DNA from: a virus
DNA length: 26,821 bases
Virus record (IMG/VR): IMGVR_UViG_3300046794_000148
Span: 1-26,821 of that record
Reading direction: 5' to 3' (one strand)
Part shown: piece after piece, positions 389-26,551 of the stretch
Numbering within the stretch: the stretch's first letter is position 1
How the letters are laid out: each line of letters opens with the position of its first letter
Made by a program: the position numbers and the translations under genes
The notes under the pieces: generated by a model
Told to the model about the DNA's origin: nothing
Databases searched by the model: none
What the model saw: only the letters and a program-made list of their open reading frames with translations

Positions 389-790
389 TTACGGCCCTCG
401 TTGTAACCACTCCGGAATCGTCGGGTCAACGTACTTATCCGTATTCAGCCCGAGATACTTCCGCATAACCACGCTCGCATCCGCCGCCATCATCGTCCAC
501 CTAATCCGCATTTGCGACTCATAGCCGCGACATTTATAGCGCACCACTACTCCGTCATGATCCGTTACCTCTTCGTATACTTTAATGCCACGCTGACGGA
601 AGCCCTTGCGGATTTCGTAGATGTCTGCGGTAATCTTCCGCTGGGCCTCCGCAATGACGTCGACATACGGGCCCGGCGTCTTAAGCGTCTCGTTGATGAG
701 CGCGATGTCCCGTTCGAATGCGGTGAGGACTCGCGGGAGGATAATATGCGATTTGATTAGCGTGCGGTCTTCCGGGGTGATATCGATCAT
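389..790 (-). CDS. Conserved phage/Bacillota protein of unknown function, SOS-linked promoter
   Basis: A 133-aa, mostly helical, charged protein starting at the ATG at 790-788 with GAAGGAG 9 bases upstream. It has no signal peptide, membrane segment or cysteine cluster. The middle (residues 25-75) is predicted helical, followed by a short beta-like stretch (KVYEEVTDHDGVVVRYKCRGY). The overall look (ILPRVLTAFERD near the start, RGY in the middle) resembles small uncharacterised proteins of Bacillus-type phages and chromosomes; I cannot name a family or a function. It is the only gene in the window with a LexA-type box at its promoter, so it may be expressed in lysogens during DNA damage. It is transcribed away from attP and is separated from it by a hairpin with a leftward T-run. 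Confidence 0.75.
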   Translation of the reverse strand: MIDITPEDRTLIKSHIILPRVLTAFERDIALINETLKTPGPYVDVIAEAQRKITADIYEIRKGFRQRGIKVYEEVTDHDGVVVRYKCRGYESQMRIRWTMMAADASVVMRKYLGLNTDKYVDPTIPEWLQRGP

Positions 791-897: not shown

Positions 898-926
898 CAG
901 ATAACGCAGATATGCGAAATTAATAG

Positions 927-956
927 TTGCAGCGATGCGCTCCCGTGTGATATATT
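927..956 (+). promoter_or_regulatory. Rightward promoter upstream of attP
   Basis: TTGCAG (927-932), 18 bases, TATATT (951-956), with TG one base before the -10 (TGATATATT, extended -10 type). The start site would be near 963. It points toward the tRNA-Ala piece at 1059 and the integrase at 1252. It could drive the tRNA gene rebuilt after integration, or integrase in the free phage. Confidence 0.5.
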
Positions 957-989
957 AATCGAGCGGAAAGAAAACGAACGGATGACTGA

Positions 990-1167
990 ACGCTGACAAA
1001 ACGTTGATATAACGCGGTTTGTACGCTGACTGACCGTTGACATTCCGGAGTAGAAAACGGGGCCTTAGCTCAGCTGGGAGAGCGCATCGCTGGCAGCTTA
1101 CTCGCTAAAAACCCGCTTTCCCTCCGTAGAATGTCCGGTGACTGTAGCGTTGACTGTTACGGTGACA
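990..1167 (+). other. attP: Phage attachment site (attP) with arm-type repeats
   Basis: Seven same-direction copies of a 9-bp motif flank a tRNA-Ala 5' fragment: ACGCTGACA 990-998, ACGTTGATA 1001-1009, ACGCTGACT 1023-1031 and CCGTTGACA 1034-1042 on the left; CCGGTGACT 1135-1143, GCGTTGACT 1147-1155 and ACGGTGACA 1159-1167 on the right. GACATTC (1039-1045) and GAATGTC (1129-1135) form an inverted pair around the core. This is the layout expected for integrase arm sites on both sides of a core, next to the integrase gene. Arms on both sides argue for an unintegrated attP. Binding of the integrase to the repeats is inferred. Confidence 0.65.
1059..1097 (+). other. 5' half of tRNA-Ala(GGC), likely att core
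   Basis: Bases 1059-1097 read as tRNA positions 1-39. The acceptor 5' strand is GGGGCCT, the D stem is GCTC/GAGC with loop AGCTGGGA, the anticodon stem 5' strand is CATCG, U33 is at 1091 and anticodon GGC is at 1092-1094. From 1098 on the sequence no longer pairs with CATCG, and no T arm or acceptor 3' strand follows. It is therefore not a functional tRNA gene but a piece identical to the front of a host tRNA gene, breaking at the anticodon loop, a known crossover place for tyrosine integrases. Confidence 0.75.
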
Positions 1168-1170
1168 TCA

Positions 1171-1182
1171 GCGGATATCCGC
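1171..1182. repeat. 12-bp perfect palindrome in the right att arm
   Basis: GCGGATATCCGC is a perfect dyad directly after the last arm repeat. It may be an accessory protein site (excisionase, host factor); this is inference from position only. Confidence 0.35.
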
Positions 1183-1217
1183 TTAGAATTAACGTAGATA
1201 TGCGTACATAAATCGTT

Positions 1218-1248
1218 CCTTTCCGTAGAATATCGGAAGGGGTTTTTT
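1218..1248 (+). terminator. Terminator hairpin overlapping the integrase RBS
   Basis: CCTTTCCG (1218-1225) pairs with CGGAAGGG (1234-1241, one G-T pair), followed by GTTTTTT. It has the form of an intrinsic terminator, yet its 3' arm GGAAGGG is the only ribosome binding site for the integrase start at 1252. Transcripts entering from the attP side would be stopped, or their integrase RBS masked. Confidence 0.65.
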
Positions 1249-1251
1249 AGT

Positions 1252-2295
1252 TTGAGCGAAGATAAACGGAAGGGCCGCGCAGTTAAAAAGGGGAGGACGT
1301 CTGAGCGCCTTCAATACTCGTTGGATTACCTGTTCGACTACTATTATCAGGCGAAGAAGTCTGAGGGCCGCGCAGAGAATACGTTAAAAACATACGTTCA
1401 GAATTTTACATACTTCTGCGAGTTTCTGGACGAACGAGGTATTATCCGTGATATCCGGAACGTTGACGTAGAGGTTGGCCGCGAATACGTGATCTGGCTA
1501 CGTGACGAGAAGCGGAAGTTTAGCGATAATTGTAACGTTCCTGAGTCTGCGCGAACGGTCGGTTTATTACCGAAGTCAATTAACACGCGGATAAAGAACA
1601 TGAAGACGATGTTTAAGTTCCTTAAAGAGGAAGACGTAATTGATGCGGACCCATTCGTATACCTCAAGAACGTTCAGGATATCGGGCGCGACATTGACGT
1701 ACTGACCGCGGAGGAAATGAATCTCCTCATTAAAGCGCCTAATCAACGTAACTATAGCGACTTCCGAGATTTCGTCGTTATGAACCTGTTAATTGACGGA
1801 ATGCTACGCGTAGACGAGGCGTTGACCTTACGCAAAGAAGACGTTGACCTGAGCGCCTGTTACGCTACCCTACGAAGAGAGATAACGAAGTCACGTAAGC
1901 CGCGCGTTGTACCGATCACCAAAAGAACCGCCAAGTTGCTGCAGGAATTGATCCGTGAGACTACGGAGTTCGACAGCGAGTACATTTTCTTAAACAACTA
2001 CGGAGAACGCTTGCTCCCGAATCACTTCCGCCATCAATTGAAGAAGTATGCGGATCGAGCCGGAATAGAGAAACGCGTATATCCACATCTACTTCGTCAC
2101 TCCGGTGCGACGCTATTTTTAGAGGAAGGCGGGTCGCAACGCCACCTGCAAGTCATTCTCGGGCATGCTGACGGCCGTATGACGGCCCACTACACGCATC
2201 TATCCGATAAGAACGTGAAGAAGAACCATGACGAGTTCTCTCCGTTAAACGCGGTAATTGGTAAGTTAGAAAAGCCGCGTAAAATAAAACGATAA
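1252..2295 (+). CDS. int: Tyrosine integrase
   Basis: A 347-aa tyrosine recombinase that would join attP to the host attB in tRNA-Ala and, with an excisionase, reverse this. Residues about 20-125 form the SAM-like core-binding domain (NTLKTYVQNFTYFCEFL). The catalytic domain follows with R186 (LRVDEAL), a Lys in TKSRKPR, H279-xx-R282 (HLLRH), H305 (LGHAD) and nucleophile Y314 (HYTHLS). All catalytic residues are present and the length is normal for phage and XerC/D-like enzymes. The lysine-rich N-terminus (MSEDKRKGRAVKKG) may contact arm sites. The start is TTG at 1252 with GGAAGGGG about 10 bases upstream, inside a terminator hairpin; no later Met is plausible. The gene lies directly beside attP, and its own strong terminator follows at 2302. 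Confidence 0.93.
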   Translation: MSEDKRKGRAVKKGRTSERLQYSLDYLFDYYYQAKKSEGRAENTLKTYVQNFTYFCEFLDERGIIRDIRNVDVEVGREYVIWLRDEKRKFSDNCNVPESARTVGLLPKSINTRIKNMKTMFKFLKEEDVIDADPFVYLKNVQDIGRDIDVLTAEEMNLLIKAPNQRNYSDFRDFVVMNLLIDGMLRVDEALTLRKEDVDLSACYATLRREITKSRKPRVVPITKRTAKLLQELIRETTEFDSEYIFLNNYGERLLPNHFRHQLKKYADRAGIEKRVYPHLLRHSGATLFLEEGGSQRHLQVILGHADGRMTAHYTHLSDKNVKKNHDEFSPLNAVIGKLEKPRKIKR

Positions 2296-2414: not shown

Positions 2415-3584
2415 ATGGCGAGAGGGAAGCGTGTTGAGCTCGTTAAGCTGACGTTAGACGGCGTCGAGGTTGACGCGAAGGTGTGCACGAAGTGTAAGGG
2501 GAATCCGAAGCCTCTAACTGAATTCCACGTAAACAAAACCAAGTATCACGGGTATGAAAGCCACTGTAAGGAGTGTAGACGGAGGCCGGGAGCGAAGCGC
2601 CGCAGGGCGTGGTCGCCTGATTTATATCGAGATCACGTTCGCGAGGTCACCTGTACTGAGTATGAGGTGTTGGGGGAGTACGTAACAAATGAGACACCGC
2701 TTCAGATGAGGCACAATACCTGTGGTCATGAGTGGCCTCTACGGCCGGGAAGCTTCCTCAGTGGGGGCAGATGCCCTGAATGTACCGAGAGCCGAAAAAA
2801 GAACCATGACACATTTGTTTCTGAGGTGTTTGATCTTGTAGCTGATGAGTATGAGGTGTTGGGTGAATATACAGCAAGTAAGATACCTCTTCAAATGAGA
2901 CACAACACATGTGGGCGTAAGTGGCTGGTAGTGCCGAACAATTTCCTAAGTGGGAGCAGATGTCCTGAATGTGCCGTGAGCCGCCCTCCAAAACCTCATG
3001 GGATATTTATTACTGAGGTGTTTGATCTTGTGGATGATGAGTACACTGTGTTGGGAAAATATCTAAGAGCTCTGACCCCTCTTCAAATGAGACACAACAT
3101 ATGTGGGCATAGGTGGTCAGTAAAGCCTAACAGTTTCCTACGGGGAACTAGGTGCCCTGAATGCGCCGCCAGCAAAGGTGAGACGCGCATCGCAACGTAC
3201 TTATCTGCGCGAGGGTATGAGTACATTCGCGGATATAAATTCGACGACTGCCGCCATAAACGCGCACTCCCGTTCGACGCGGCGGTAATAGTCGCAGACA
3301 GCGTTATCCCCATCGAGTACGACGGAGAGCAGCACTCCCGTCCGGTAGACTTTGCGGGTAGGGGCGACGATTGGGCGGAACGTGAATTCCGCAGAGTTCA
3401 ACGCAACGACGCCATCAAAACGGAGTATTGCCGCGCTAACGGCATTCCGTTAATCCGTATCAAACATACGCAGTTCGACGAAATCGAAGCGTTTCTCGAT
3501 CGTGAACTATCCGCATTAGGCGTAACAGGCAAACGCAATAATACGGATAACAACGATATTACGCGAAAGGAGGACGCAGCATAA
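2415..3584 (+). CDS. EDxHD-type endonuclease with three zinc repeats
   Basis: A 389-aa protein. The N-terminus has CTKC...CKEC (zinc finger, about residues 22-53). Three repeats of 63-64 residues follow (about 71-134, 135-198, 199-255), each with PLQMRHNxCG, a Trp and RCPEC. From 256 there is a Vsr-like nuclease domain with E256 (GETRI), D288 (LPFDA), E301-YDGEQ-H307 and D332 (RNDAIK). These fit the EDxHD homing-endonuclease family described from Bacillus phages, in which zinc and repeat modules read a long DNA site. It would cut unlettered alleles and spread its own gene; no intron or intein is seen, so it is freestanding. The start is ATG at 2415 behind GGAGAGGAGACGG. Codon use in the repeats (for example GAGGTGTTTGAT, CTTCAAATGAGA) differs from the CGN/GCG-rich flanks. 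The gene overlaps the next start by one base. Confidence 0.8.
   Translation: MARGKRVELVKLTLDGVEVDAKVCTKCKGNPKPLTEFHVNKTKYHGYESHCKECRRRPGAKRRRAWSPDLYRDHVREVTCTEYEVLGEYVTNETPLQMRHNTCGHEWPLRPGSFLSGGRCPECTESRKKNHDTFVSEVFDLVADEYEVLGEYTASKIPLQMRHNTCGRKWLVVPNNFLSGSRCPECAVSRPPKPHGIFITEVFDLVDDEYTVLGKYLRALTPLQMRHNICGHRWSVKPNSFLRGTRCPECAASKGETRIATYLSARGYEYIRGYKFDDCRHKRALPFDAAVIVADSVIPIEYDGEQHSRPVDFAGRGDDWAEREFRRVQRNDAIKTEYCRANGIPLIRIKHTQFDEIEAFLDRELSALGVTGKRNNTDNNDITRKEDAA
2628..3179 (+). repeat. Three tandem coding repeats of about 190 bp
   Basis: The repeats encode the zinc modules of the EDxHD protein. Equivalent points (CTTCARATGAG) lie at 2700, 2889 and 3081, so the units are 189 and 192 bp. Copies 2 and 3 are more alike than either is to copy 1, as after a late duplication. 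Confidence 0.8.
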
Positions 3585-17800: not shown

Positions 17801-19618
17801 ATCGTACCGAAACTAACGCTAAACTTACGGCCGCCTGCGGATGACGGAGCGGCGGAACGGGTAGCAGACGCAGCTAAACGGAAGAAGGCTGCGCAGGAGA
17901 CGGACGAAGAGGCGATCGACCGCGTACTGCGGATGTCATTAACGGATAAGCAACGCGAGTTAGTCGAGGGATTATCGGGCGAAACAGGCAATCGTCCGAC
18001 TCTCCGTACCTCTGGCGGCCAAGTTACGAAGGAAGACGTAATCCGCGCGGCTGAGCATATGCAACGGCAAAGGCAGACGGATCAGCGCGCGGAAAAAGTT
18101 GCGGAGACACTAGCGTCAAAGCCGGCGAATTTCCACATCGTAACGGATGACGCGGAGTTACCTGCGTTCGTCGAACGTATTCGCGAGGAGTGTCGGCGCC
18201 AAATGGCGGAGTGGCCGGACAGGTGGGCGGTACTTGGCGTAAAGTCGCTGACCGCGAATGACTTCGAGGGTACCGGAGTAGACACGTACATTGACATATC
18301 AATCGGATATAGCGTGTGGCTTCCGTTACTGGACGAAGGCTATTACCTTCCGTATGGACACGTTGATATGCGCGGCGAATCGGGCTTCGAGTTCCTTGAC
18401 GATATGAGCGCGCATAAATCAACCGACCGCCAGCTCACGCGTTCAAAAGTCCTTGCGGCAATCGCGCCCTATCTAGCGCAACCAACGCACGGCAAATCGT
18501 TTCATATGGGATCGGCGCGCTATGACTTACACGTTGCGATTAAGGACGGATACGAGATTCACGGCTGCGTATGGGATTCGCTTGATGCGATGAACTCGCT
18601 GAACGAACACGAAGAGTACTTCGGTCTCAAGCCGCTAACCGCGAAGTATGGACGGTATTTCGGAATCGATGGCCCGGTCTATACGTTCGAGGATATGTTC
18701 GGAAACCGTTCACCGGCTCCGTTTAGTATCGAACTCGTCGGAATCTACGCGATAAAGGACGTTCTGTACGGTTGGCGCCTTACGGAATGGCAATTCGAAC
18801 AGATGCGCGTTACGCCGTCCGCAGATAAGCCCGGCAAGCTCCTCGAATGTTACGCGCAGATTGACTCGAGGCTTCCGGAGACAGACGTATTCTTGGCGCG
18901 GTCAGGCTTCTGCGTTGACATTGACGGACTCGCCGCGTTAGAAACCGAGTTCGAACCGCTACTTGAGAAGGCGCGGGCCGACGTATTTGACGCATACCAG
19001 ATTGACGACGCGTTTGTACGTAAGATGGACCGAACGATCAACGCGGCTAAGGTTGCGGACTGGATTGATAAGCAACGTAAGAGAATCGCAAGGAATGAGG
19101 AAGCGCAGACGAAACAACGCGCCATTATTTCGGAGTGTGAGGTCGCCGGCAAAACACAACTCAAGAAGTATACGAACGCAATCGATAGACTTGCGCAATT
19201 GAAGGCGGAAAACTTAGCGCCGGCCGACGAAGAGCACGCGCCACTTAACATAACGGAGTTTTCAATTACTAACGGGAATCACCTTGCGTACTTGATATAC
19301 GACCACCTCGGAATACGCGACCGCACCGGACAGTTTAAGCGCGGTAAGGCACGTAGTACGGCGGCGGACGTCATGGAGGCGTATTACGAAGAGGAGGAGG
19401 CGCTAAAGCCGCTGGCGACCGTAGCTGCGTACGAGAAGCTGCTAACAACGTATATTCAACCGATGTTAGGGAGCGCGGGCAAATCGTCCATTATCGAAGT
19501 AGATGGGCGCGTACACTCGGAGTTCAAAGCGGGAGGAACCGCGACAGGGCGCTACAGTTCGTCAGGTTATAGCGGAAGACCGATCGACATATTACGCGAA
19601 TTTGAAACGGAGGAATAA
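17801..19618 (+). CDS. DNA polymerase I family, N-terminal part (exonuclease and thumb)
   Basis: 605 aa if read from ATC at 17801. AAAGGAG lies 9 bases before this ATC, a stop (TGA 17792) lies just upstream in frame, and the next ATG (17933) has no RBS; the 44 codons between look fully coding (VPKLTLNLRPPADDG...). Residues about 110-330 form the 3'-5' proofreading domain with D154-F-E156 (exo I) and D242 in RYDLH (exo II). The thumb follows, then TGRYSSS (582-588), where family A enzymes lead into the palm. The protein stops 21 residues later, before motif A; the rest is encoded at 19938-21035. It should act as a two-chain enzyme that copies the phage genome. Confidence 0.82.
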   Translation: MVPKLTLNLRPPADDGAAERVADAAKRKKAAQETDEEAIDRVLRMSLTDKQRELVEGLSGETGNRPTLRTSGGQVTKEDVIRAAEHMQRQRQTDQRAEKVAETLASKPANFHIVTDDAELPAFVERIREECRRQMAEWPDRWAVLGVKSLTANDFEGTGVDTYIDISIGYSVWLPLLDEGYYLPYGHVDMRGESGFEFLDDMSAHKSTDRQLTRSKVLAAIAPYLAQPTHGKSFHMGSARYDLHVAIKDGYEIHGCVWDSLDAMNSLNEHEEYFGLKPLTAKYGRYFGIDGPVYTFEDMFGNRSPAPFSIELVGIYAIKDVLYGWRLTEWQFEQMRVTPSADKPGKLLECYAQIDSRLPETDVFLARSGFCVDIDGLAALETEFEPLLEKARADVFDAYQIDDAFVRKMDRTINAAKVADWIDKQRKRIARNEEAQTKQRAIISECEVAGKTQLKKYTNAIDRLAQLKAENLAPADEEHAPLNITEFSITNGNHLAYLIYDHLGIRDRTGQFKRGKARSTAADVMEAYYEEEEALKPLATVAAYEKLLTTYIQPMLGSAGKSSIIEVDGRVHSEFKAGGTATGRYSSSGYSGRPIDILREFETEE

Positions 19619-19620
19619 AT

Positions 19621-19950
19621 ATGTTCTATACATTTTCGCAAAACAATTCAGGTGGGACATTTGATGTAAACAACCGCGTGTGCGAGTACGTAATTGTTGA
19701 GGCGGATTCCGCTAAAGACGCAAACGAGAGAGCGGAGAACGTCGGCGTTTACTTTAACGGCTGTGATACCGGTGCTGACTGTGAGTGTTGCGGTGACCGC
19801 TGGTACGAACAATGGGACGAGTCGGACGGCAAGGAGGTTCCTTCGATCTACGGAACGGCAGTAACTGAGATGACTGCGGGGTTCTTCCGTAAACAAGCTT
19901 ACGTTTATTACAAAGATGGCCGTAAGGAGGCGGTAATATTTCCGGAGTGA
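19621..19950 (+). CDS. 109-aa protein inserted between polymerase halves (DUF7296-like)
   Basis: ATG 19621 behind ACGGAGGAATAA. The start MFYTFSQNNSGGTF and the cluster CECCGDRWYE (about 58-67) match a small family seen in Gram-positive phages (I believe the DUF7296 type) of unknown role. It has no nuclease motif, so it is not an evident homing gene. It starts 3 bases after the first polymerase part and overlaps the second, so all three are co-translated. CxCC may bind zinc. Codon use agrees with the phage. Confidence 0.7.
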   Translation: MFYTFSQNNSGGTFDVNNRVCEYVIVEADSAKDANERAENVGVYFNGCDTGADCECCGDRWYEQWDESDGKEVPSIYGTAVTEMTAGFFRKQAYVYYKDGRKEAVIFPE

Positions 19951-21035
19951 AAATAACTGACGCGAACTACCATGCTATCGTCCGTAAGCTCATCTCAGAC
20001 AACCGTAAGGTAAGGCGCGGCCTAAATGCCCAGAATTTACCATCAAAAGGTGCAGGTAACCGTGTCCGTAATCAATTCGTTCCACGCGAAGGCTTCACGT
20101 TCGTAGGCGCCGACTTAGGCCAGATTGAGCCGCGCATAATGAGTCACATCATGTATACGAAATACAGCGATAACTCTATGCGCCAGATATTCGTTGAAGG
20201 CGTTGACCTTTATACGACGATGGCGATGATGACGTTTGATCTCGCGGAAGAGTATTGCGTCGACAAAGCGTATGATCCGACCGGCAAGTTCAAGCCACGC
20301 GTCATGATGAAGACGGGCCAGCTCGCCGTATCCTACGATCAGTCCGTTAAATCTTTCGCAAAGAAGATGCAGGTTACTGACGATGTTGCGCAGATGTTCT
20401 TCGAAAACTTCGATCAGACGTTTCCGTCGTTTAAAACGATGGTGGCTGATATCCGCGACTTCATGCGCCAGCACGGTTATGTCGAAACACTATTCGGCCG
20501 TAAACGACGCTTTCCGGATTATAAACGTGTAGCTGCAGCGGCCGCGAAGAATGAACAGCGCTTAATCCGCTTGTATACAGAACGGAAGGCACTACGCAAC
20601 AAAACGAAGCCGACCGACGCGGATCAACGTAAACTTACCACGCTGCAGGAAGAGATCGATAAGATCGCGGAGGATCGCGGCAATGTCGGCTACTGGGAAC
20701 GCGCATCATTCAACGCGGTTATCCAAGGAACTGGCGCTGACATTCTTAAGCGCATCGGTATCCGTATGGCGCAGATTTGTCGGGAACGCGGATGGGAGTT
20801 TAACGCGTCAATACACGATGAAGTTATCGTAAGCATTCCAGACGACCAGGTGACTCCGGAAACAATCGCGCTCATTAACGAAGTGATGACGAAGACTTCC
20901 GAGTTGAGCGTACCGCTTACGACGGACATTGCGATACAAAAGCGCTGGATGATGGAGTATTCAGCGGACGAATGGGACTACGTGAATAACCGGCCGTTGC
21001 CGGAGTTTGCGAATAAATACGGGGAGGCTGCGTAA
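19938..21035 (+). CDS. DNA polymerase I family, C-terminal part (palm and fingers)
   Basis: 365 aa from ATT 19938, which sits 7 bases after TAAGGAGG; the alternative GTG 19947 (overlapping the previous stop as GTGA) has that RBS 16 bases away. The front (KITDANYHAIVRKLISDNRKVRRGLNAQNLPSKGAG) continues family A polymerase after TGRYSSS. Motif A is GADLGQIEPRI (D59), the O-helix R121-VMM-K125-TGQ-L129-AVS-Y133, and motif C SIHDEVIV (D294, E295). Leu replaces the Phe762 of E. coli Pol I. All catalytic residues are present, and the gene alone lacks thumb and exonuclease, so it needs the first part. Confidence 0.85.
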   Translation: MSGVKITDANYHAIVRKLISDNRKVRRGLNAQNLPSKGAGNRVRNQFVPREGFTFVGADLGQIEPRIMSHIMYTKYSDNSMRQIFVEGVDLYTTMAMMTFDLAEEYCVDKAYDPTGKFKPRVMMKTGQLAVSYDQSVKSFAKKMQVTDDVAQMFFENFDQTFPSFKTMVADIRDFMRQHGYVETLFGRKRRFPDYKRVAAAAAKNEQRLIRLYTERKALRNKTKPTDADQRKLTTLQEEIDKIAEDRGNVGYWERASFNAVIQGTGADILKRIGIRMAQICRERGWEFNASIHDEVIVSIPDDQVTPETIALINEVMTKTSELSVPLTTDIAIQKRWMMEYSADEWDYVNNRPLPEFANKYGEAA

Positions 21036-21679
21036 TGGAGAACGAAATCGTAACGGTATTTGACATCGAATCAACCGGACTCGATCCGGCCACCGATCAC
21101 ATTACGGAAATCGCCGCGATCCGTGCGGAAGTTGGGCCCGGCGGTTATATCCGCGAGATTGGGCGGTTCCAGACGTACGTTGCGCTGCCGACGGTAAACG
21201 GCGAAGCTGTGGAGATTCCGGAGTTCATAACGGAGCTCACCGGAATTAAGACGGAGGATTTGCGCGGTGCTCCTCACGTTATCAGCGCTCTAATATCGCT
21301 GGACTGGTTTGCGGGCGACACAATTGTTGCGCATAATGCTCCGTTTGACCTGTCGTTCATAACTCGCGCGCAAACCGATTTTGACACCGACAACTTCGCC
21401 TGCACTCGCGCCATGTCACGCCTAATCGATCCGGATGAGAACGCCAGCCTTGCGCCGACATGTGAGCGTTACGGAATCGCGCTTAACGGACATCACCGCG
21501 CTATGAATGACGTGGAGGCTACGCTGCAGCTTTACGCAATCCTGCGAGAGAAGGCGGAGGTTAGCGGAATCACATACCGCAATGTCGTCGTCGATAGTCC
21601 GGAGCGGCCGCTGACTTACACGCCGCCTGGCGCGATTGTGCGTACGATTGAACGTAGACAAACGAAGGAGGTTGCGTAG
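21035..21679 (+). CDS. DnaQ-like 3'-5' exonuclease
   Basis: 214 aa, ATG 21035 with GGGGAGG upstream. Exo I is TVFDIESTGLD (D10, E12), exo II VAHNAPFDLSF, exo III HHRAMNDVEATLQL; the H-x4-D makes it the DEDDh type. It removes 3' nucleotides from DNA or RNA. The polymerase already has its own exonuclease domain, so this is a second one, perhaps for proofreading, repair or host nucleic acid breakdown. It starts on the last base of the polymerase gene and is followed at once by the zinc-ribbon gene. Confidence 0.88.
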   Translation: MENEIVTVFDIESTGLDPATDHITEIAAIRAEVGPGGYIREIGRFQTYVALPTVNGEAVEIPEFITELTGIKTEDLRGAPHVISALISLDWFAGDTIVAHNAPFDLSFITRAQTDFDTDNFACTRAMSRLIDPDENASLAPTCERYGIALNGHHRAMNDVEATLQLYAILREKAEVSGITYRNVVVDSPERPLTYTPPGAIVRTIERRQTKEVA

Positions 21680-24109: not shown

Positions 24110-24471
24110 TGCTAATTGTCTATGCATCACGTACGGGAAATGTCGGCCTATTCGCGCGGCGTCTCCCGTATCCTACGCAAAAGTTAACGGAGGATCTACG
24201 CGTAACTGAACCGTTTATCCTCGTAACATATACGGATAAGATCGGAGAAGTTCCGGCTAAGACGCGCAAATTCCTCGCATATAACAACGAATACTTACGC
24301 GGCGTGGCTGCGTCCGGCAACCGTAATTTCGGACCGGCTTACGCACTCGCTGCGGATCAAATATCGAATCAGTACGGAGTGCCGATCGTTTGCAAATTCG
24401 AACTGGCAGGCACGCCTACCGACATACAAAAATTCACCGAAGGAGTGGACGCGCTTGTCGCAAACGTATAG
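24109..24471 (+). CDS. nrdI: NrdI flavodoxin of class Ib ribonucleotide reductase
   Basis: 120 aa, ATG 24109 with AAAGGAGCG upstream. FMN-phosphate loop SRTGNVG (7-13), LVTYTDKIGEVP, and ASGNRNFG, the NrdI hallmark loop. It delivers oxidant to build the dimanganese-tyrosyl radical in NrdF. It overlaps nrdE by 17 bases. The order nrdI-nrdE-nrdF is that of Bacillota hosts and their phages. Confidence 0.93.
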   Translation: MLIVYASRTGNVGLFARRLPYPTQKLTEDLRVTEPFILVTYTDKIGEVPAKTRKFLAYNNEYLRGVAASGNRNFGPAYALAADQISNQYGVPIVCKFELAGTPTDIQKFTEGVDALVANV

Positions 24472-26551
24472 ATATATCGAACTAAATAACGAGGTTACCG
24501 TGGAGAAGGACGGATTCTACCAGCTCGAAAAGGATACGGAGGCCGTCGAGGAGTTCATGCGTTTCATTCGCTATAATAAGATGCGGTTTGATTCCGTAAT
24601 GGCGCGCGTTCAGTACATGGTCGATAACGGATATTACTATCCGGAAGTGTTGGCGCAATACACTCCGGAACAGATTACGGATGTTCACCGCATGGCTGAC
24701 GACGCGGGCTTGCGATTCGCTTCGTACATGGCCGCGTTCAAATACTATACGGACTATGCGCTCAAGACTCGCGATAAGAAAACGTACCTGGAATCGCCGG
24801 AAGAACGTTACGCAATCATCGCGCTATATCTGGCGCAAGGTAACTACGAACAAGCGCGGGAGCTCATGTGGGGCTATCTTAACGGAGTACAACCGGCAAC
24901 ACCTACGTTCCTCAACGCAGGCAAAGCGAGGCGGGGCGAAATGGTATCATGTTTCCTTACGGAGCTTGACGATAGTCTTAACGCGATCGGCCACGCACAT
25001 AATACCGCGATGCAACTTTCGAAAATCGGCGGCGGCGTGGCGCTGAACCTATCGAAGCTGCGCGGACGGGGCGAGGCGATTAAGGAGGAGGAAGGCGTAG
25101 CAAAGGGCATACTTCCGGTCGCTAAGCAACTCGAAATGGCGTTCTCATATGCGGATCAAATGGGACAACGGAAAGGGAGCGGCGCAGTCTATTACAACAT
25201 CTTCGGATGGGACGTAATGGAGCTACTTGACGCGAAGAAGATCAACGCGGATGAACGGTCGCGCCTCAAAACGCTGTCGATCGGACTTATCGTTCCATCG
25301 AAGTTTATCGAGTTAGCGAGAGCCAACGCGCCTTATTACGTGTTCGCGCCACACACCGTGCACAAAACGTACGGAACGCACTTGGACGATATGGACATTA
25401 GCGCGATGTATGACGAGCTCGTTGCGAATCCGTCCGTTAAGAAGCGGGAATTAAATGCGCGTGAGATGCTAACGAAGATTGCAACGACGCAGCTCGAATC
25501 GGGATATCCGTATCTCATGTTCAAGGATAATGCGAACGCAGGTCATGCGCTGAAAGGCGTCGGCCAGGTGAAGATGTCAAACCTCTGCACGGAAATTTTC
25601 CAGTTGATGGAAACTAATATTATCAACGACTACGGACAGCCGGACGAAATTGGCCTCGATATCTCGTGTAATCTCGCGTCGCTCAACATCGTTACCGCAA
25701 TGGATTCCGGAGACTTACGTCGCGCTGTTCATTCCGCAATGGATTCGCTGACCGCAGTATCCGATATGACATCGATTGAGAACGCGCCAGGCGTACGAAA
25801 GGCTAACGATTTGATGCATAGCGTAGGACTCGGCGCAATGAACCTTCACGGATATTTAATGAAGAACCGCATATCGTACCAATCCGGACTCGGACGCGAA
25901 TTTGCCGACGCATTTTTCGCCGTGATCAACTACTACTCGCTGGAACGTTCGATGCAGATCGCTAAGGAGCGAGGAGAGTCCTTTTACGGATTTGACCGTT
26001 CGGACTACGCCAATGGAGTGTACTTCACGCAGTACATCGAAAATGACTTCCGTCCGAAATTCGAAAGAGTGGCGGATCTATTTACCAGCGTAGGGTTGGA
26101 ACTTCCGGGACCTGACGAGTGGGAGCGTTTGGCCGCGGACGTTAAGGAGCATGGGTTGTGGCACGCGTATAGACTCGCAATCGCGCCAACGCAAAGTATC
26201 TCGTACGTACAGAACGCGACGAGCTCCGTGTTGCCTATCTCCGACGTTATGGAGACACGTACGTACGGAAACTCCACGACGTACTATCCGGCACCATACC
26301 TGACGCGTGAGAACAAGATATCGTATACCAGCGCGTTTAAAATGGACCAGCGCAAAATTATCGAAATGGTTGCGACAATCCAGCGACACGTGGATCAGGG
26401 GATATCGACGATCCTCTTCGTAGATTCGAATACACCGACCAACGAACTCGTCCAATACTATTTATACGCACATAAACTAGACCTTAAATCACTGTACTAT
26501 ACGCGTAATAAATTGCTACCCGTATCTGAGTGTACTTCATGCGCTGTCTAA
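24455..26551 (+). CDS. nrdE: Class Ib ribonucleotide reductase alpha subunit
   Basis: 698 aa, normal for NrdE. The start is TTG 24455 with GAAGGAGTGG upstream. Motifs: QPATPTFLNAGKARRGEMVSCFL (substrate-site Cys), NLCTEIFQ (radical Cys and Glu), SCNLASLN, PTQSISYVQNATSSVLP, the YY pair in LKSLYYTRNK (radical transfer) and C-terminal ECTSCAV (C-x-x-C reduced by a NrdH-like redoxin). It converts ribonucleotides to deoxyribonucleotides for phage DNA. No inactive ATP-cone is seen, as usual in class Ib. No intron or intein interrupts it. Confidence 0.95.
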   Translation: MSQTYRYIELNNEVTVEKDGFYQLEKDTEAVEEFMRFIRYNKMRFDSVMARVQYMVDNGYYYPEVLAQYTPEQITDVHRMADDAGLRFASYMAAFKYYTDYALKTRDKKTYLESPEERYAIIALYLAQGNYEQARELMWGYLNGVQPATPTFLNAGKARRGEMVSCFLTELDDSLNAIGHAHNTAMQLSKIGGGVALNLSKLRGRGEAIKEEEGVAKGILPVAKQLEMAFSYADQMGQRKGSGAVYYNIFGWDVMELLDAKKINADERSRLKTLSIGLIVPSKFIELARANAPYYVFAPHTVHKTYGTHLDDMDISAMYDELVANPSVKKRELNAREMLTKIATTQLESGYPYLMFKDNANAGHALKGVGQVKMSNLCTEIFQLMETNIINDYGQPDEIGLDISCNLASLNIVTAMDSGDLRRAVHSAMDSLTAVSDMTSIENAPGVRKANDLMHSVGLGAMNLHGYLMKNRISYQSGLGREFADAFFAVINYYSLERSMQIAKERGESFYGFDRSDYANGVYFTQYIENDFRPKFERVADLFTSVGLELPGPDEWERLAADVKEHGLWHAYRLAIAPTQSISYVQNATSSVLPISDVMETRTYGNSTTYYPAPYLTRENKISYTSAFKMDQRKIIEMVATIQRHVDQGISTILFVDSNTPTNELVQYYLYAHKLDLKSLYYTRNKLLPVSECTSCAV

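Follow-up and report, generated by a model that had tools for sequence, protein, structure and literature searches.

The attachment site of a probable Paenibacillus temperate phage carries the front of a tRNA-Ala(GGC) gene, including a promoter-like element

Which half of a target tRNA gene does a temperate phage rebuild when it integrates, and whose promoter then stands before the rebuilt gene? IMG/VR virus record IMGVR_UViG_3300046794_000148, positions 1–26,821, the whole 26.8-kb stretch that was analysed and is called the window here, raises both questions. Its attP differs from that of most tRNA phages in holding the front part of the gene, with promoter, leader and tRNA bases 1–39. The first-pass annotation of this DNA had set that arrangement against the rule that tRNA-targeting phages bring the 3′ part of the tRNA, and the rule holds with known exceptions: the Islander survey recorded a displaced 5′ tDNA fragment in 159 of 3919 islands, versus 3760 (PMC4383910). 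We consider it highly probable that the window represents a Paenibacillus temperate phage in unintegrated form, with attP intact, that its tyrosine integrase would recombine within the anticodon loop of tRNA-Ala(GGC) and that integration would exchange the promoters of phage and host. A DNA search of a phage database returned nothing beyond 29-bp matches to the tRNA piece, a plasmid search returned no relative of the window integrase, and an Rfam search of the window returned no matches.

The features of the attachment region are collected in Table 1. The attP core, GGGGCCTTAGCTCAGCTGGGAGAGCGCATCGCTGGCAGC, is identical to bases 1–39 of full Paenibacillus tRNA-Ala(GGC) genes, as expected from the first-pass assignment of this piece to the 5′ half of the tRNA; host genes sharing all 39 bases, the search for which had been proposed as a check, are present in many Paenibacillus genomes. 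ARAGORN detects no complete tRNA gene in the window, which may be a partial genome, so the piece is a tRNA fragment. The anticodon loop, CTGGCAG, occupies 1090–1096 with the anticodon GGC at 1092–1094, and the core stops one base past the loop, within which the crossover is expected to fall. Identity of the core to a stretch of a host tRNA gene, arm repeats on both sides of it and an adjoining tyrosine recombinase gene make up the layout of a temperate phage that targets a tRNA gene through a tyrosine integrase. All seven arm repeats named in the first-pass annotation are present, four before the tRNA piece, of the form (A/C)CG(T/C)TGA(C/T), and three after it, of the form CG(T/G)TGAC, with a spacing of 11–12 nt within each group. 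CGNTGAC occurs six times in 240 nt at attP, where the composition of the remaining window predicts 0.19.

Table 1. Features in and around the attachment site (window coordinates).
Feature	Coordinates	Strand	Details
Conserved ORF, phrog_34234, function unknown	389..790	-	Borders attP; marks the phage side of attR
Second repeat, two copies	905..942	+	GCAGATATGCG.. (906) and GCAGCGATGCGCTC (929); copy two overlaps the -35 and spacer
Promoter-like element	927..956	+	TTGCAG 927-932, 18-nt spacer, extended -10 TGATATATT 948-956; conserved in relatives
P arm	990..1041	+	Four repeats of integrase arm type (990, 1001, 1023, 1034) separate promoter from tRNA half; 0.1 expected in 240 nt
tRNA-Ala(GGC) bases 1-39, attP common core	1059..1097	+	Identical to host tRNA-Ala; 40-bp attL/attR repeat in G003
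P′ arm	1098..1216	+	Three arm-type repeats (1136, 1148, 1160) and further GCGGATATCCGC / GTAGATATGCG sites
Terminator-like hairpin and T run before int	1217..1248	+	Hairpin 1217-1242; 3′ arm GGAAGGGG (1235-1242)
Tyrosine integrase (int), 347 aa, TTG start	1252..2295	+	PF00589 1.6e-35; phrog_1 3.2e-49

A second repeat is also concentrated in this region. Allowing up to three mismatches, it has nine matches in the window versus 1.9 in shuffles, and six of the nine lie within 906–1207, the tRNA core itself being one of those six. The promoter spacer (930–942) and the tRNA half (1080–1092) also contain the two arms of a perfect inverted repeat of 13 nt. We discarded regulatory pairing between these two segments, since the segment in the promoter precedes the expected start and would be untranscribed. 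As similar sites, GCAGATATGCGCTC, recur in both attP arms, the inverted repeat is likely a putative protein-binding site, and possibly a candidate integrase or regulator site overlapping the -35.

Integrase relatives were collected from Paenibacillus genomes and virus contigs, and the other junction was located by a full-tRNA search of the same records. At attL, read in G003, G005, G001, P. taiwanensis (G002) and P. vini (attL only), a host-type promoter is followed by the tRNA-Ala 5′ half and then by the phage P′ arm, toward int. At attR, read in G003, G002, G005 and G001, the phage promoter, the P arm and the phage-borne 5′ half are followed by the host 3′ half, and the rebuilt gene is a complete tRNA-Ala(GGC) according to ARAGORN. 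In these integrated copies, both junctions lie in the tRNA gene (in G001 on two separate contigs), the host 5′ fragment is displaced to the int side and the complete tRNA stands at the far end, as in other 5′-restoring elements. Identical direct repeats of 40 (G003), 103 (G002), 38 (G005) and 40 bp (G001) join each attL/attR pair. The attachment of the host 3′ half to a phage 5′ half, which the first-pass annotation had offered as the direction of exchange, is thus read at both junctions in four prophages, all of them placed exactly at the 39-base site where it had proposed to look for them; the host tRNA promoter that it had expected to be left pointing at int is found so at attL of the relatives.

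The nearest prophage to the window is that of G003, with an integrase 98% identical to the window's. Between the window and its attL there is a 62-bp exact match covering the core and the start of the P′ arm, and the match to its attR covers the core and the promoter region; a homologue (82%) of the ORF bordering attP adjoins this attR. Judged by these matches, the window is the joined attP form relative to the G003 junctions, and a second relative, L015, is also in attP form. The anatomy of attP and, in relatives, both junctions are established at the level of sequence.

The rebuilt tRNA at attR is preceded by a conserved promoter-like element, TTGCAG..TATATT (TATAAT instead in G002), which differs from the host promoter found at attL. 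Of the 103-bp repeat in P. taiwanensis, 64 bp are tRNA leader. G024, a prophage-free relative, has a leader of the same kind and the promoter that stands at the P. taiwanensis attL. Since G024 carries the attL promoter while attR has another, the exchange of promoters is real. It is observed at the sequence level, and from it we infer the transcriptional effect. Most hosts have nrdR upstream of the empty site, and G001 has it upstream of attL. The window itself encodes a phage ribonucleotide reductase large subunit (24455–26551), and the attB of the family lies directly behind the gene for this host ribonucleotide reductase regulator, whether by chance or not.

The two halves of the rebuilt genes fit. 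In the acceptor stem, phage position 7 and host position 66 form T-A in G003 and G002 and A-T in G005 and G001, and for the L015 half, GGGGAAT, a matching host type ending in ATTCTCC is found in G099. A tRNA-Lys(CTT) is called directly behind tRNA-Ala in P. taiwanensis and G005, and the start of tRNA-Lys is visible at the contig end in G001; in these three hosts the phage promoter should therefore drive both tRNAs. As only one full tRNA-Ala(GGC) gene was found in P. taiwanensis, the rebuilt copy is likely needed there. G003 presents a tandem case: the 5′ half and promoter of its rebuilt tRNA-Ala come from the 5′-mode prophage (L016/L141/L142/L024; G003 57435–57507, 2339–2385), the 3′ half adjoins a second integrase-like ORF of another family, judged from sequence alone (L141 10206–11387), and a displaced tRNA-Ala 3′ fragment lies ~55 kb away. 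If this second element is a 3′-mode island, as it seems to be, the tRNA-Ala was apparently assembled from two mobile elements, with the host halves stranded at their outer ends.

We next turn to what the phage-side element would do. Where the first-pass annotation had placed an extended -10 promoter, a promoter-like element is present, its extended -10 reading TG-A-TATATT, and it is conserved in L015, G003, G005, G001 and G002, that is, in every tRNA-Ala 5′-mode relative with a P arm that was read. A simple consensus promoter scan does not list 927–956 because TTGCAG matches 3/6 of TTGACA. The scan also lists a promoter-like site at 1162–1189, in the P′ arm, that could serve int; by eye this site has no counterpart in relatives. 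Further from the window, the Bacillus phages KLEB27-1 (47%, tRNA-Val) and phi18-2 (43%, tRNA-Ala) carry 3′ halves, yet before attP, at the equivalent position, both show this promoter layout (TTGCAGAATAGCGCTCCTATCGTCTATAAT and TTGCAACGTAGCGCCCCTGTATCGTATAAT, respectively). Since a 3′-mode phage needs no tRNA promoter there, the simplest reading is that the element upstream of attP is the int promoter, which 5′-mode phages have probably reused for the tRNA. Before integration it would probably read across attP toward int; integration would separate int from it; and the same promoter would then drive the rebuilt tRNA, being strong enough to stand in for the host's.

The occurrence of this layout in 3′-mode Bacillus phages also suits a narrower explanation, in which 927–956 serves int alone and the tRNA of a lysogen is transcribed from elsewhere, for instance by read-through from phage genes. 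We regard this as unlikely: in every 5′-mode attR the element is the promoter-like sequence that immediately precedes the rebuilt tRNA, spaced much as a host promoter would be, the ORF bordering attP reads away from the tRNA, and homologous promoters occur directly before tRNA-Ala in G244 and, more weakly, in G192. In G244, the region upstream of tRNA-Ala (L101/L145; C10 9130–9281) matches the phage promoter at 84% over 56 nt and is the top match to it in its own genome (E 1.1e-10); nrdR lies upstream, no prophage intervenes, and G192 likewise has nrdR upstream. In a tree of nrdR the promoter types are intermixed within a single clade.

The 5′ mode is not confined to tRNA-Ala. G243 harbours a 5′-mode prophage at tRNA-Pro(GGG) whose integrase is 46% identical; its two junctions were read and its rebuilt tRNA is complete (loci L158/L159/L160; C27 115887 and 157529). 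Its phage-side promoter, TTGCAAGGGTGCGCGGCTATGTCGTATAAT, has the same layout. At attL the host-side tRNA-Pro promoter, which directly follows a host sugar ABC transporter operon, itself looks phage-like, with three arm-like ACGTTG repeats in its leader. GCGCnCC is common to the spacers of five divergent promoters, which show 95 pair identities versus 48.5 ± 5.9 in 20,000 shuffles, in a comparison that was aligned by hand on the hexamers and whose G243 entry turned out to be the host-side promoter. We tentatively entertain, at somewhat worse than even chances, the idea that the int promoter is a travelling tRNA promoter, which would fire int, pass to the host tRNA operon and be able to outlast the prophage, such that some host tRNA promoters would be phage fossils. 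Leads in favour are the G244 match, the mixed promoter types in the nrdR tree and the arm-like repeats before tRNA-Pro in G243. Transfer may also have run in the opposite direction, with the phage capturing a host promoter of the G244 type.

A further alternative takes the 5′ half for an accidental or decayed remnant of a tRNA and the window for a fossil with no working attP. The restriction of the tRNA to 39 bases would suit this, but all 39 are identical to the host gene, arm repeats stand on both sides and the int ORF is intact; moreover, four independent relatives are integrated exactly here, which already refutes it in the relatives, and for the window we find it very hard to credit. That the window uses the canonical 3′ mode, giving the 3′ half and retaining the host promoter, is next to impossible, since, although sisters L005, L049, L051, L052 and L057 do so at the same tRNA, the window is without a tRNA 3′ half, G003 has the displaced 5′ half on its int side and no close relative has an intact tRNA on that side.

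These sisters, together with L006, have integrases roughly 70–90% identical to that of the window and lie in canonical 3′ mode downstream of tRNA-Ala 3′ halves (mostly whole genes), with a phage-borne terminator; several of their int genes are frameshifted. In the integrase tree, which is built from a single gene and has moderate supports, L051 falls among the 5′-mode members and the main 3′ clade is nested inside the 5′ group. This placement contradicts a restriction of the 5′ mode to a single integrase clade, and implies that the mode changed at least twice or that att modules were exchanged. The initial 20 nt of the phage promoter, but not its -10, are retained in L005 (TTGCAGCGATGCGCTCCCGT) and in L011 (one mismatch). 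In both (L005 11159–11650, L011 4138–4655) the remnant lies beside a homologue of ORF 389–790, in inverted orientation and on the downstream side of int. This arrangement suggests that they descend from a 5′-mode ancestor via a rearrangement broken inside the promoter. Of 69 Paenibacillaceae genomes searched for tRNA-Ala fragments, two had 5′ fragments and about 18 had 3′ fragments.

On the other side of the core, the int ORF begins 155 nt past its end. The first-pass annotation had reported a terminator at 1218 ahead of int, and a terminator-like hairpin followed by a T run is indeed found there. Its 3′ arm is also the int Shine-Dalgarno, 9 nt ahead of the TTG start; relatives have AAGGAG or GGAGGTG at the int ribosome-binding site. 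The window hairpin (-12.7 kcal/mol, z -2.45) is by itself no better than chance, as shuffles yield 0.8 such sites. Six 5′-mode members were folded including the window, and the other five have a hairpin in the same place with z between -3.1 and -6.2; a count of base pairs gave no covariation support, the pairs being retained mostly through one-sided changes. The hairpin is likely an attenuator or shield and would damp read-through from the host tRNA promoter into int. Directly after int lies an endonuclease-like gene (2415–3584; phrog_559 HNH endonuclease, CapR domain), and further along the window DNA polymerase A-type functions are spread over three ORFs (17933–21679; polymerase, polymerase, exonuclease).

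Since a minority of 159 of the 3919 islands is already documented (PMC4383910), the 5′-restoring kind of element is not new. As in those islands, the window phage supplies the 5′ part and the displaced host piece is a 5′ fragment. The survey gives counts only, whereas here the element-borne promoter was followed through several relatives, and the family has, in addition to that record, a sister group in 3′ mode and an int-side hairpin that includes the int ribosome-binding site. The 3′-half sisters (L005, L049, L051, L052, L057) share with the window the integrase family (at least 70%), the tRNA, the core and the orientation of int; they differ in carrying the 3′ half and a terminator, with the tRNA staying under the host promoter.

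One review (PMC8371274) states that rebuilt bacterial tRNAs retain their original promoter with very few exceptions, and describes pTN3-like archaeal integrases as 5′-restoring, with the tRNA expressed from the integrase promoter, an arrangement seldom met in bacteria. As in these archaeal systems (PMC8371274, PMC5495485), attB here is the tRNA 5′ half and the tRNA, once rebuilt, no longer stands behind its own promoter. In contrast to them, the window is a bacterial phage with attP outside the int gene, which integration leaves unsplit: no split int of the pTN3-like type is seen, the int ORF being intact both in the window and next to attL in G003, G005 and G001. In tRNA-dependent lysogeny (PMC10865867), as would be the case here, viability of the lysogen relies on phage DNA for a host tRNA. 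There, however, the core is short, the phage encodes a separate, whole tRNA gene of matching isotype and no target is rebuilt at the junction; here the junction rebuilds the tRNA, and no whole tRNA gene is found in the window, which may be a partial genome. Among the papers searched, no Paenibacillus precedent was met. The window phage is thus a well-supported addition to a rare, already known type of tRNA insertion.

Both junctions, read in several relatives, document a rarely described route of tRNA attachment in which host and phage promoters are exchanged. Because sister integrases take the ordinary route at the same tRNA, the group is a natural comparison for what decides which half an element rebuilds. 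A plausible reason for the 5′ mode is that, in hosts with a tRNA-Lys co-transcribed downstream of tRNA-Ala, a 3′-restoring element would part the tRNA-Lys from its promoter, which a 5′-restoring element with its own promoter does not. The conserved and reused promoter, the changes of mode and the possible fossil promoters are of specialist interest, and the exchange suggests a route by which phage promoters could replace those of host tRNA genes.
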